Assembly (NCBI RefSeq): GCF_001542875.1
Contig: NZ_LMAF01000002.1
Span: 1,015,501-1,079,500, forward strand
DNA length: 64,000 bases
Direction of reading: 5' to 3'
Origin: Erythrobacter sp. YT30
Lineage (GTDB): Bacteria; Pseudomonadota; Alphaproteobacteria; Sphingomonadales; Sphingomonadaceae
How positions within the stretch are numbered: position 1 is the first letter of the stretch; the number at the start of each line of letters is the position of its first letter. Shown here in pieces: positions 53,179 through 57,855 of the stretch. Made by a program: the position numbers and the translations under genes. The notes beneath the pieces were generated by a model. It was not told where the DNA came from. It searched no databases and was given only the letters and a program-made list of their open reading frames with translations.

Positions 53179-53370
53179 TCAATCGCGGCTGAAAATCTCT
53201 TCGATTGGCAGCTCAAAAACCTCGGCAATGCTGAATGCCAGCGGGAGGGAGGGGTCATAGCGACCCTTCTCAATCGCATTTACTGACTGGCGCGAAACGC
53301 CGAGGCGTTCGGCGAGATCCTGCTGCGACCAGTCGCATTCTGCGCGCAGGACTTTGAGGCGGTTTTTCAT
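53179..53370 (-). CDS. Small XRE-family helix-turn-helix regulator
   Basis: The product is 63 residues from the ATG at 53370 (MKNRLKVLRAECDWSQQDLA). The helix-turn-helix is complete (QQDLAERLGVSRQSVNAIEK) and is followed by GRYDPSLPLAFSIAEVFELP, the pattern of YozG/SinR-like minimal regulators found beside membrane proteins. Its ATG overlaps the stop of the upstream membrane protein gene (ATGA), making it the fourth and last gene of a coupled module. An inverted repeat at the module promoter (54678-54705) is a candidate target. Confidence 0.9.
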   Translation of the reverse strand: MKNRLKVLRAECDWSQQDLAERLGVSRQSVNAIEKGRYDPSLPLAFSIAEVFELPIEEIFSRD

Positions 53371-53786
53371 TCGTCGTCTGCTTGCTGGCGCAGAACCATG
53401 GTGTTCCAGATCGCGCCAACGCCAAGGCCCACGAACCATACGAATGCCGTGCCAAACCCGCCTGTCTCCCGGCTCAACACTTCGTAGTTTTGGAGGAATT
53501 CCCAGATCGTCATGACGCAAAGGCAGAATGCGGTCGCAATCAAGACCTGGCGCACAAACATCATGCGCATGAATTCATCGCTCTCCTCTGCGAGCAGGCG
53601 GAAGATGGTCCAAAACACACCGATTATGGGAAGCGCCGGAAGGATCGCTGCGGCCCATGCAAGCGCTCCTGTTGGAGGGGCGGTGCGGAAGAGTGTGCCG
53701 ACAGCGAAGATGAGGACCACGAAAATGGCCATGAATACGGCCAATCGTTTCACATAACGCCCAATGGCGGATGAACGGTAGCTCAT
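53367..53786 (-). CDS. Four-span membrane protein, paralogue of the upstream gene
   Basis: The product is 139 residues from the ATG at 53786 (MSYRSSAIGRYVKRLAVFMA). It has four hydrophobic segments. The central stretch EESDEFMRMMFVRQVLIATA matches EEADEFMRMLVIRQALIASG in the upstream membrane protein, and FLQNYEVL matches FLEWAEVV, so the two are paralogues. No known family is recognised with certainty. The conserved E-x-x-D-E-F-M-R-M...R-Q motif probably faces the cytoplasm between two membrane helices. It overlaps the XRE gene by 4 bases. Confidence 0.75.
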   Translation of the reverse strand: MSYRSSAIGRYVKRLAVFMAIFVVLIFAVGTLFRTAPPTGALAWAAAILPALPIIGVFWTIFRLLAEESDEFMRMMFVRQVLIATAFCLCVMTIWEFLQNYEVLSRETGGFGTAFVWFVGLGVGAIWNTMVLRQQADDE

Positions 53787-54644: not shown

Positions 54645-54677
54645 AAGTAAAGCCTCCTTTCAACTATGGAAAGGACA

Positions 54678-54705
54678 CTTGTCATTGATTCGAGCAAATG
54701 TCAAG
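54678..54705. promoter_or_regulatory. Imperfect inverted repeat at the module promoter
   Basis: CTTGTCATTG (54678-54687) and CAAATGTCAAG (54695-54705) form an imperfect inverted repeat with a 7-base spacer, 34 bases upstream of the 58-residue gene. On the minus strand it contains TTGACA, a candidate -35 box, so the XRE protein could repress its own operon here. Confidence 0.4.
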
Positions 54706-54801
54706 CAAGCTTTCCATTGCCCGCTCCCCAATCGCGCTCTCGGATGGGTTTTGCGAACTAAGGGGTGGCGGGGCGCGCTTTCGCCGCTATATGCTTGGGC
54801 G

Positions 54802-54873
54802 ATGGCAAACGCGCTCACTACCACCACGACTACCACAACCTCGGATGTTCCGGGGCGGTCGTCTGCGCGTTAA
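54802..54873 (+). CDS. Threonine-rich leader peptide of thrS
   Basis: This 23-codon frame runs MANAL, then eight consecutive threonine codons (54817-54840), then SDVPGRSSAR and TAA. It lies 137 bases before thrS on the same strand. A run of codons for the amino acid that the downstream enzyme loads is the hallmark of a transcription-attenuation leader peptide: ribosome stalling at Thr codons when charged tRNA-Thr is low would favour readthrough. A -10-like CTATAT at 54787-54792 would place transcription start almost at the ATG, so it may be leaderless, which would fit the lack of a clear ribosome binding site. Function is inferred from layout. Confidence 0.7.
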   Translation: MANALTTTTTTTTSDVPGRSSAR

Positions 54874-54878
54874 ACGCT

Positions 54879-54915
54879 GACACATGCCGCCCGACCCGAA
54901 GGGCGGCGCGGTGTC
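54879..54915 (+). promoter_or_regulatory. Putative antiterminator hairpin of the thrS leader
   Basis: GACAC...GCCGCCC (54879-54892) can pair with GGGCGGC...GTGTC (54901-54915) around an 8-base loop, giving 7 plus 5 base pairs with a small internal loop. Its 3' arm includes bases needed for the downstream terminator stem, so the two structures exclude each other. Confidence 0.55.
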
Positions 54916-54958
54916 CCTCTTCGAAATCGGTTCCAAACCCCCACACCGCTCTTTTTCT
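54908..54958 (+). terminator. Putative attenuator terminator before thrS
   Basis: GCGGTGT (54908-54914) pairs with ACACCGC (54943-54949), followed at once by TCTTTTTCT. The 28-base loop contains a small GGTT/AACC hairpin. A GC-rich stem plus T tract inside a leader, ahead of the gene and after a Thr-codon peptide, fits a conditional terminator. Confidence 0.5.
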
Positions 54959-55010
54959 GCGCGCGCCCCTGTGGCAGAGCGCGCCCAAGGACAGACGGAA
55001 TGATTAGCCA

Positions 55011-57026
55011 ATGACCGAACTTCTCAAGATCAGCCTCCCCGATGGATCGGTGCGCGAAATGAAGCCGGGCAGCACGCCGTATGATGTCGCAGCCGCCATT
55101 GGGCCAGGGCTTGCCAAGGCTGCGCTTGCCGCGCGCGTCGATGGGGAAGTGCGCGACATCAACCGTCCGTTTGAAGGCGATAGCGAATTGGCGCTCATCA
55201 CGTCGAAGGATGAGGCTGACGCGCTCGAACTCGTGCGCCATGACTATGCGCATATCCTCGCAGAGGCGGTGCAGGCGCTTTATCCCGGCACGCAGATCAC
55301 CTTTGGCCCGGCGACCGATGATGGCTTTTATTATGACGTAAAAGCGCCCGACAGCCGCGAACCATTCAGCAGCGAAGATCTGCCAGCAATCGAAGAGAAA
55401 ATGCGCGAGATCATCAAGGCGGATAAACCGCTGCGCCGAGAGGTGTGGAGCCGCGAGCAGCTGATCGAGAAATGGGAAGCAGAAGGCGAGAAGTTCAAGG
55501 CGGAATGGGCCAAGGAACTGCCCGAAAACGAAGAGCTGACGGTCTATTGGTCAGGGGATGACTGGCTCGATATGTGCCGCGGCCCGCATCTTGCCTCAAC
55601 CGGCAAGCTCGATCCCGACGCGTTCAAACTGATGCGCGTCGCTGGTGCCTATTGGCGCGGTGACCAACGCAATGCGCAATTGACGCGCATTTACGGCACG
55701 GGCTGGCTCAACAAAAAACAGCTTAAGCAGCATCTTCACAATCTCGAGGAAGCCGCCAAGCGCGATCACCGCAAGCTGGGCCGCGAGATGGACCTGTTTC
55801 ACCTGCAGGAAGAGGCGCACGGCTCTGTCTTCTGGCATCCCAAAGGCTATCGCATCTGGCGCGAACTTGAAGCCTATATGCGGCGCAAGATGGACGGCGC
55901 TGGCTACCGCGAAATCAAGACGCCGCAGCTGATGGACGTGCGCCAGTGGGAGCAATCAGGCCACTGGGGCAAATACGCTGAGAACATGTTTGCCGTCCCC
56001 GACATGGTCCCCGAAGTCGAGGAAGGCGGGGATGGCCCGGCCAAGCCGACGGTCGAAGCCGATGCCGACTGGATGGCGATCAAGCCGATGAATTGCCCCG
56101 CGCACGTGCTAGTCTTTAAACAAGGCATCACGTCCTATCGTGATCTGCCGATCCGCCTTGGCGAAATGGGCTGCTGCCACCGCAACGAACCGCACGGCGC
56201 GCTCCATGGCTTGATGCGCGTGCGCCAATTTACGCAGGATGATGCCCACATCTTCTGCACCGAGGAGCAAGTCGTCGAAGAGGTCCGCGCCTTCTGCCAA
56301 CTGGCCGATAGCGTCTACAAGGATTTCGGTTTCACCTATCACGTGAAGCTCGCCCTGCGTCCGGAAAAGCGCTTTGGTTCTGAAGCTGATTGGGACAAGG
56401 CCGAACAGGAATTGCGCGATGCCGTGGCCGAGGCTGGCATGGCGAATGACGAATATGGCTGGGAAGAGCTGCCGGGCGAAGGGGCATTCTATGCGCCAAA
56501 ACTCGAATGGCATTTGACCGATGCCATCGGGCGCACCTGGCAGGTTGGCACGATCCAGGGTGATCGTGTTCTGCCCGAACGTCTTGATGCGACTTATGTG
56601 GGTGAAGATGGCGGACGCCATCGCCCCGTCATGCTGCACCGCGCGATCTTCGGTTCGTATGAGCGCTTTATAGGCATTCTGATCGAGCACTTTGCCGGAC
56701 GCCTGCCCGCGTGGCTTTCGCCCGTGCAGGCGGTGGTCGCACCGATCGTGTCCGACATCGATGATTATGCGAACGAGACGCTCGCCAAGCTGGAGGCTGC
56801 CGGGCTGCGCGCAGACGCTGACCTTCGCAACGAGAAGATCAATTACAAGGTGCGCGAACACAGCCTCGCGAAAGTCCCTTACATGCTCGTTGTCGGTAAG
56901 CGCGAACAAGAAGAAGGCACCGTCGCGCTGCGGACGCTCGGCGAAAAAGAGCAACGCGTGCTGCCGGTTGAAGAAGCAATCACGATGCTGAAAGAGGCAG
57001 CAACGCCGCCTGATTTGCGGGACTAG
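55011..57026 (+). CDS. thrS: Threonyl-tRNA synthetase
   Basis: The product is 671 residues and attaches threonine to tRNA-Thr. The N-terminal TGS domain ([20 protein letters not shown]) is followed by the editing domain ([20 protein letters not shown]), the class II core ([44 protein letters not shown] with the zinc Cys, [39 protein letters not shown]) and the anticodon domain ([20 protein letters not shown]). Expression is probably controlled by the Thr-codon leader and hairpins 55-210 bases upstream. It ends 1 base before the convergent DUF1223 gene. Confidence 0.97.
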
Positions 57027-57027
57027 A

Positions 57028-57768
57028 TCACTCGACCCAGCGCGCGGCCAATACCGGGCCGCCATCAGGTTCGCGCAGGACAAGTGCGTAGCGGTCCGCT
57101 CCTGCCATTCGCATTTGCGACGATTTCAAGGCGTGGCTCGCTGTGCCGCCTGACCATGTGGCGATGCGTTTTTCGTCGATCAGGACATTGGTGTAGGTGA
57201 CGGTGCGCCCGCCGTTTTCTCCGCGACCTATCTTTACATCCTCGCGGCTCGACACGCCGACCAGCACGAGATCGGCGGCCCTGTCCGTGGTTCCGCCAAG
57301 CCCAACGCCAAACCCGCCAGTGGTGGGTTTAAGGCGGATGACCGCGCGATTGGTGGAGCGTGCGCGGCTGGTCAGATCGCGCAATGCGGCTTCCTTTGAT
57401 CCGACTTCGCCGTATCGTCCTGCAACCACGCTTTGCGGGGTGTAAACGCCATTATATCCGCCAAGTCCGCGCCGGGCGTATACGCGCTGAAGATCGGAAT
57501 TGGATGGTTTGGCGTATGTGTCTTTCCACCCGAGCCTGTCCCAGTAATCGACCGGCTTTGAAATGACGACGAGATCGGGTTCGCGATCAAGCTTTTGCGC
57601 CAGACGATCAGCAGGTGGGCACGAGGAGCAACCCTGGCTGGTGAACAGCTCGATGAGGACGGGTTCTTCGGTGAGGACTGAGGCGTTCGTTTGTGATTGG
57701 CCAAAAGCGTTGGGGCCCAGCAATATGCCAGCACTTGCGGCAAGCGCGCCAAAGATCATCCGCTTCAT
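57028..57768 (-). CDS. DUF1223 thioredoxin-like exported protein
   Basis: The product is 246 residues from the ATG at 57768, with GAGGTG upstream. A signal peptide (MKRMIFGALAASAGILLGPN) is followed by the thioredoxin-like start PVLIELFTSQGCSSCPPADR with a CxxC pair, then KPVDYWDRLGWKDTYA and YTPQSVVAGR, which are diagnostic of DUF1223. The CSSC pair suggests thiol-disulfide chemistry in the periplasm, but the function of the family is not established. Confidence 0.9.
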   Translation of the reverse strand: MKRMIFGALAASAGILLGPNAFGQSQTNASVLTEEPVLIELFTSQGCSSCPPADRLAQKLDREPDLVVISKPVDYWDRLGWKDTYAKPSNSDLQRVYARRGLGGYNGVYTPQSVVAGRYGEVGSKEAALRDLTSRARSTNRAVIRLKPTTGGFGVGLGGTTDRAADLVLVGVSSREDVKIGRGENGGRTVTYTNVLIDEKRIATWSGGTASHALKSSQMRMAGADRYALVLREPDGGPVLAARWVE

Positions 57769-57855
57769 AAAACACCTCATGTCCATAGGGCGCAATCGTC
57801 CCATGTTAGGAGGTTCGGCGTTTCAGTGAGTTTGGTTACGCGAGCGCGCGCTCGA

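Follow-up and report, generated by a model that had tools for sequence, protein, structure and literature searches.

The stretch of DNA analysed here, hereafter the window, comprises 64,000 nucleotides of the Erythrobacter sp. YT30 genome, and the features described lie on its plus strand unless otherwise indicated. The gene proposed to be controlled is thrS (positions 55011 to 57026), which encodes a threonine--tRNA ligase and was identified by its open reading frame and by the NCBI equivalog model TIGR00418 (E 6e-193). Since its 3' neighbour, a DUF1223 gene (positions 57028 to 57804), is on the minus strand, the transcript in the host genome probably carries thrS alone. Upstream of thrS, a thrL-like leader ORF of 23 codons, MANALTTTTTTTTSDVPGRSSAR, recognised from the sequence and from its relatives, extends from an ATG at 54802 to a TAA stop codon at 54871-54873, and 137 bases separate this stop codon from the thrS start at 55011. 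Eight consecutive Thr codons (positions 54817 to 54840) follow one another in the order ACT ACC ACC ACG ACT ACC ACA ACC, all four synonyms being present. This frame had been reported in an earlier note on this DNA, whose coordinates are exact to the base. In a genome-wide pattern scan, ACN runs of at least six codons were found at two places in the 3.2-Mb genome, that is, in the leader and at the N-terminus of an unrelated long ORF, and the reversed pattern, which served as control, gave one match. An imperfect palindrome, TGGAAAGGACACTTGTCA...TGTCAAGCAAGCTTTCCA (positions 54667 to 54716), separates the leader from minus-strand genes, one of which encodes a small HTH_3 regulator (positions 53179 to 53520). 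It is possibly the operator of this regulator, and palindrome-like sequences were also seen upstream of thrS in L031, L099, L057, L052 and L079.

We compared this region with the 80 best named ThrS relatives and with 30 loci of the same GTDB family. As judged by a short-ORF search together with an RNA model, 54 of the 80 named loci carry a Thr leader before thrS; as these loci were picked by similarity, this proportion is not a family frequency. The RNA model matched 51 of the 54 at E 2.2e-10 or better, 47 of these 51 matches belonging to its own training set; for the Thr leaders of L062, L079 and L088 the match is weak or absent. When the distinct upstream regions of these two samples were counted with the window included, at least 67 of 107 contained a Thr leader, namely 64 after removal of three false hits plus L041, L048 and L080, whose leaders were confirmed by reading the sequence. 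The false hits (L040, L103, L025) were seen by eye to be parts of upstream genes, and the automatic hits L139, L146, L182 and L283, L293, L304 of later samples were also removed. A further 53 stretches of the family yielded eight Thr leaders by eye at a threshold of five Thr codons in nine, at least two of the further family leaders resembling genomes of named loci (L140/L038 and L149/L096); under this threshold, L144 has a leader with four Thr codons in a row. At the genome level, one strong copy of the RNA model (E 5e-6 or better) per genome was found in 50 of 149 genomes of the family, a count that includes genomes used in training the model, and about two thirds of the 149 showed no strong copy. 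The copy lies upstream of thrS in all five genomes compared (G033, G105, G162, G006 and G166). In G006 and G166 an intervening gene separates it from thrS, the distances being 564 and 549 bases, respectively. No convincing leader was found among 27 genomes from other families of the order, one automatic hit being discarded.

The leaders use a mixture of Thr codons. Their 460 Thr codons are 59% ACC, 20% ACT, 15% ACG and 6% ACA, three or four synonyms are used in 52 of 64 leaders, and ACT is commoner in the leaders than in the thrS genes (20% versus 6%). Such a mix offers a direct test of how synonymous codons set the sensitivity of a leader.

The region has also been lost or rearranged in places. 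The closest named ThrS relative, L031 (91% identity), and L099 (89%) have both lost the Thr run, and the 200 bases before their thrS genes look like decayed attenuators in which promoter and/or terminator scraps are left. In L079 the Thr leader is retained just 50 bases before thrS and the terminator region is absent. In L049 (positions 1244-1500 of that locus), an inserted inverted repeat, GC-rich and roughly 80 bases long, interrupts the loop of the terminator. In L041, L048 and L080, as well as in L143, an ORF of about 168 amino acids (MRYYIDTEFNGT...), for which no Pfam match was found, lies between the Thr leader and thrS; it is situated about 560 bases upstream of thrS, and the hairpin region reaches its start codon.

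In a class-wide sample, Thr-rich short frames before thrS were found in three stretches among the 60 genomes examined. In family f72, a Thr leader precedes thrS in eight of ten loci, one of the two others (L254) being cut near a contig end, and in seven of the leaders a GC-rich hairpin is present together with a run of six T. In family f73 (L287-L310), each of the 24 loci examined has a short frame ending in the motif CGAACTTGA..CGGCCGG, and in eight of them four or five Thr codons are near it; this motif could represent a second type of leader. The f73 frames that we read end with the residues Arg-Thr, and a CCGGCC arm follows, and the motif is present even where few Thr codons are left. Family f58 gave a Thr leader in one of 24 loci examined, among which the match for L286 begins inside the gene. 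Because the sequences look unrelated by eye, the f72, f73 and f58 leaders are provisionally taken as separate origins.

Five helices can be drawn from the end of the Thr run to the region before thrS. The Z:A hairpin (positions 54839-54845 with 54849-54855) lies at the end of the Thr run. Helix A:B joins A (54853-54865), which is still in the leader ORF, to B (54881-54892). The B:C hairpin (positions 54879 to 54915) has a core in which GCCGCCC (54886-54892) pairs with GGGCGGC (54901-54907), and in the host it can be extended by pairing GACAC (54879-54883) with GUGUC (54911-54915). Helix C:D joins C (54891-54906) to D (54915-54930). Finally, a terminator-like hairpin, T, is annotated at positions 54908 to 54957 with a 28-nt loop and a following TCTTTTTC; its arms are GCGGTGT (54908-54914) and ACACCGC (54943-54949), after which comes TCTTTTTCTG. 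Overlapping hairpins and a T-rich stretch after the leader stop had been described in the earlier note and are indeed present. The loop of T contains segment D, and the 5' arm of T falls within the region enclosed by C:D. Since the five helices overlap in a chain, they form two sets, {Z:A, B:C, T} and {A:B, C:D}, that exclude each other as nested folds.

We used an alignment of 59 sequences, from 33 nt before the leader stop to about 105 nt after it (L049, L011, L062, L088 and L079 being left out), to ask, by duplex energies, whether segments of one sequence pair better with each other than after exchange between species, a comparison that depends less on exact alignment columns. All five helices were favoured in their own context, with z values of -7.5 for A:B, -2.9 for B:C, -11.6 for C:D, -9.6 for T and -2.6 for Z:A. 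In contrast, no signal (z within -1.3 to +2.4) was obtained for A:D, B:D and A:C, nor for three pairings with the arms of T (A or C with the 3' arm, B with the 5' arm). In the set {A:B, C:D}, 84.8% of cells are paired and 14 of 20 pairs changed on both sides (eight of the nine counted pairs for A:B alone), with a covariation of 0.291 versus 0.190 after shuffling (0/500). In the set {Z:A, B:C, T}, the corresponding values are 83.4% and nine of 19 pairs, with a covariation of 0.155 versus 0.118 after shuffling (0/500). Shared ancestry inflates both the swap and the shuffle tests, a worry that the slid versions (0.057-0.127 for the first set and 0.028-0.079 for the second) and the silence of the other combinations limit and do not remove. 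T is just 67% paired in columns: five of its seven pairs are missing from 22 to 28 rows each, which is due, in part at least, to misalignment of rows in this stretch. The RNAalifold consensus contained B:C and neither T nor C:D. Taken together, the alignment shows compensatory change in five helices belonging to two mutually exclusive sets, an arrangement laid out as in the his attenuator.

ACN runs can come from repeat expansion, and the whole arrangement might in principle be a functionless low-complexity accident. The comparative data contradict this: the run recurs beside thrS with mixed synonyms, and the five helices covary. Its recurrence among relatives, accompanied by compensatory base changes, shows that it is not due to chance, and we regard an accident as practically negligible.

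The assignment of B:C to one of the two states differs in part from that of the earlier note, which saw it as an antiterminator. As B:C competes with both A:B and C:D, it goes with termination on comparative grounds; the antiterminator role holds for the fold predicted for the host itself under stalling, which uses the extended B:C. In the relatives this extension, that is, B with the 5' arm of T, has no covariation support (z -1.3), some complementary 5-mer, mostly GC-rich, being found in 23 of the 59 sequences.

The effect of ribosome position was studied by placing a ribosome on each codon in turn and predicting the fold of the RNA beyond it, an equilibrium calculation with an assumed ribosome edge, not a kinetic one. 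In the host, the predicted probability of T is 0.92 with the ribosomal A site at Thr codons 1 and 2, 0.71 at codon 3 and 0.41 at codon 4; it falls to 0.00 at codons 5 to 8, is 0.04 at the next codon, and then lies between 0.81 and 0.99 from there to the stop. Averaged over the 59 sequences, T drops to its lowest value (0.12) with the ribosome at the last Thr codon, where C:D peaks (0.40), the mean for T being 0.18-0.39 over the rest of the Thr run and 0.20-0.35 over the next eight codons, and reaching 0.60 for the first time 11 codons after the run (n=41), near the stop. The predicted contrast is thus modest across the 59 sequences, and weaker than in the host. With another masking rule, and with helices taken from the alignment and the RNA ended 8 nt after T, T was higher at the stop than under stalling by more than 0.2 in 37 of 59 sequences, with the reverse in four, and it was likelier in free RNA than under stalling in 22 of 59, with the reverse in one. 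A first thermodynamic test of 62 sequences had given no contrast (T higher at the stop in 11, under stalling in 12), because the hairpin finder often chose other stems and the RNA ran further past the terminator. In the host fold model C:D stays at 0.00 and A:B at no more than 0.03 at every ribosome position tested; under stalling, B:C extends into the 5' arm of T and A pairs with the 3' arm of T. The comparative route and the route predicted for the host would nevertheless end alike, with no T while the ribosome is stalled.

The position of the Thr codons relative to this switch also bears on autogenous control. In the E. coli-type thrS operator, tRNA-Thr-like domains that overlap the ribosome site are bound by ThrS, and ThrS might likewise bind the leader RNA here and repress its own synthesis. 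Such repression is the known biology of thrS in enterics (mentioned in PMC2965389); it leaves the Thr codons and their placement relative to the switch unexplained, and we consider it highly improbable.

Looking upstream of the leader, we found a promoter-like element, P1 (positions 54765 to 54793), with a −35 sequence GTGGCG (54765-54770) that is a poor match, a 17-nt spacer and a −10 sequence TATATG (54788-54793). This −10 ends 8 nt before the leader ATG, and an alternative, TATGCT (54790-54795), ends 6 nt before it. Among 64 leaders, 40 have their best −35/−10 pair ending 6-7 nt ahead of the ATG and 49 have a 17-nt spacer, the relatives' best pairs often being TGAC or TTGA, then TAT. In shuffled upstream DNA, the 6-7 nt distance was seen in 3.2% of cases and the mean score was 7.5, versus 9.7 for the real sequences; in some of the leaders off this distance another ATG lies a few codons upstream in the same frame. 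A promoter-like pair 6-7 nt before the ATG, with the usual spacing, places the predicted transcript 5' end at the ATG, and suggests that the leader mRNA is leaderless, its 5' end being at or next to the ATG. A predicted leaderless start and a short attenuated RNA resemble Sinorhizobium rnTrpL (PMC7298713), and one could imagine that the short RNA and its peptide act in trans, like rnTrpL/peTrpL, with the control of thrS being secondary. The peptide tail RGRxxA/R does recur among the leaders; the codons of this tail, however, make up arm A, and RNA pairing accounts for them, and the one strong copy per genome stands before thrS wherever its position was compared. A role in trans therefore appears very unlikely to us.

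Across relatives the loop of T measures 22-37 nt (median 25), and in 55 of 63 sequences no more than three T occur among the 8 nt that follow the hairpin, a survey in which the script picked another stem in a few rows. The U tract of the host is the best of the 63, with six T in the 8 nt after the hairpin. A terminator scan of the window, which allows loops of 3-8 nt, did not list T with its 28-nt loop. Given the long loop and the few T in most relatives, termination at T may be inefficient or assisted by additional factors.

A second promoter-like element, P2 (positions 54951 to 54979), was recognised as a profile motif consisting of CTT (54951-54953) and TGTGGCAGAG (54970-54979). An iterative profile found the corresponding motif (CTT then TGTGCCATGG) in 80 of 107 thrS upstream regions, an optimistic figure since the profile was trained on the same regions, shuffled regions giving 9.5 of 107. 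Of the 64 regions that have a leader, 61 contain the motif, as do 19 of the 43 counted as having none (L041, L048 and L080 being among the 43), and it lies 32-43 nt before thrS in 62 of the 80 regions that have it. Within thrS itself, 281 of 2889 windows satisfy the profile too, and a strict regular expression found the motif in eight of 107 regions. By its sequence, P2 resembles a promoter and may give a basal, unattenuated thrS start; P2-like DNA downstream of the terminator would bypass the attenuator.

These features raise the question of what the switch acts upon. The leader and hairpins might sense Thr-tRNA with an output other than intrinsic termination, namely Rho-dependent termination, pausing, translation or control of P2. 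The short U tracts of most relatives, the start of the P2-like element directly after the 3' arm of T, and the reach of the hairpin region to the start codon of the inserted gene in L041, L048 and L080 would all fit such an output. On the other hand, the host's own U tract is good, the thrS start is 62 nt past T and covered by none of the arms described, and the Thr leader hairpin of family f72 is followed by six T. We hold a non-intrinsic output to be unlikely.

We thus propose ribosome-mediated transcription attenuation of thrS that senses charged tRNA-Thr, a reading to which we give a probability of roughly 0.8. It combines the computational results on the leader and its codon run, their conservation, the covariation of the helices and the predicted dependence of T on ribosome position; the short ORF has control codons cognate to the regulated gene, and the mutually exclusive RNA structures are linked to the codon run. 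Transcription would begin from P1, approximately at the leader ATG, and ribosomes would read the leader on an essentially leaderless transcript. When Thr-tRNA is ample, the ribosome would reach the stop codon or leave, Z:A and/or B:C would form and tie up C, and T would then fold ahead of the U-rich stretch and stop transcription. When Thr-tRNA is scarce, the ribosome would stall on the last Thr codons and cover Z; A, being freed, would pair with B, and C, freed in turn, with D. As C:D encloses the 5' arm of T, T would not form and the polymerase would enter thrS, the increased ThrS then restoring tRNA charging. P2 may supply basal thrS expression. The reading of the earlier note as attenuation by a Thr-codon leader appears right in substance, both sequence tests that it had named, conservation of the Thr run and compensatory change in the stems, having been favourable. 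A wider picture is tentative, and doubtful when all its parts are taken together: attenuation of thrS by Thr leaders would have arisen several times in Alphaproteobacteria, and the Erythrobacter-group version would be a leaderless, his-like five-helix switch that halts transcription without a classical U-tract terminator in most species and places a starvation-driven P1 atop an unregulated P2. With their varied copies, decayed remnants and unrelated-looking occurrences, these loci make a good system for studying the origin and loss of attenuators and the function of weak U tracts.

The control of thrS is known as autogenous repression in enterics and as a T-box in Firmicutes. A tRNA was the sole Rfam match at gathering score in the 64-kb window, no T-box was among the three Rfam matches at E up to 10 in positions 54740-55030, and no Rfam family reached gathering score in seven relative loci. 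The thr operon leader (Rfam RF00506, Thr_leader), a gammaproteobacterial family, has a Thr-rich peptide and a terminator, comparable to the Thr-rich peptide and terminator-like hairpin of the thrS leader, but precedes biosynthetic thr genes; the host region scored 19.3 bits against this model (E 0.21), versus a gathering score of 55. In the his leader, whose segments are designated by letters, stalling of the ribosome switches successive hairpins. The his attenuator of E. coli and Salmonella shares with our leader the run of control codons and, according to PMC1183508, an extra hairpin between pause hairpin and terminator, which there keeps read-through low when the ribosome leaves. The thrS leader differs from it by its Thr codons, the synthetase gene and the predicted leaderless start, and no sequence relation was seen.

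Leader peptides have precedents in front of synthetase genes. Cognate leader peptides are described before pheST in gammaproteobacteria and trpS and leuS in Streptomyces (PMC1262725), and before hisS in bacilli (PMC2965389); like the thrS case, these are cognate leaders, for other synthetases and in other lineages. The earlier note called a Thr leader controlling a threonyl-tRNA synthetase in an alphaproteobacterium unusual; given these precedents for synthetases, it is thrS alone that looks new as a target. Within the Alphaproteobacteria, the trpL/rnTrpL leader ORF of S. meliloti begins at the transcript 5' end, as stated in PMC7298713 and PMC10117765, such a start being a prediction for thrS, and it differs by its Trp codons and its trpE(G) operon. 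Sinorhizobium SEP5, a proposed leader peptide (PMC10117765), is a short ORF in a 5' UTR with six Thr codons; it has Lys codons too and precedes an aspartate dehydrogenase gene, not thrS. No recognisable report of a Thr leader at thrS was found in full-text searches of open-licence papers in PubMed Central. Altogether, the type of switch is known and thrS as its target looks new. If the proposal is true, thrS joins the few synthetase genes with leader-peptide control and gains a third mode of regulation in addition to autogenous repression and the T-box.
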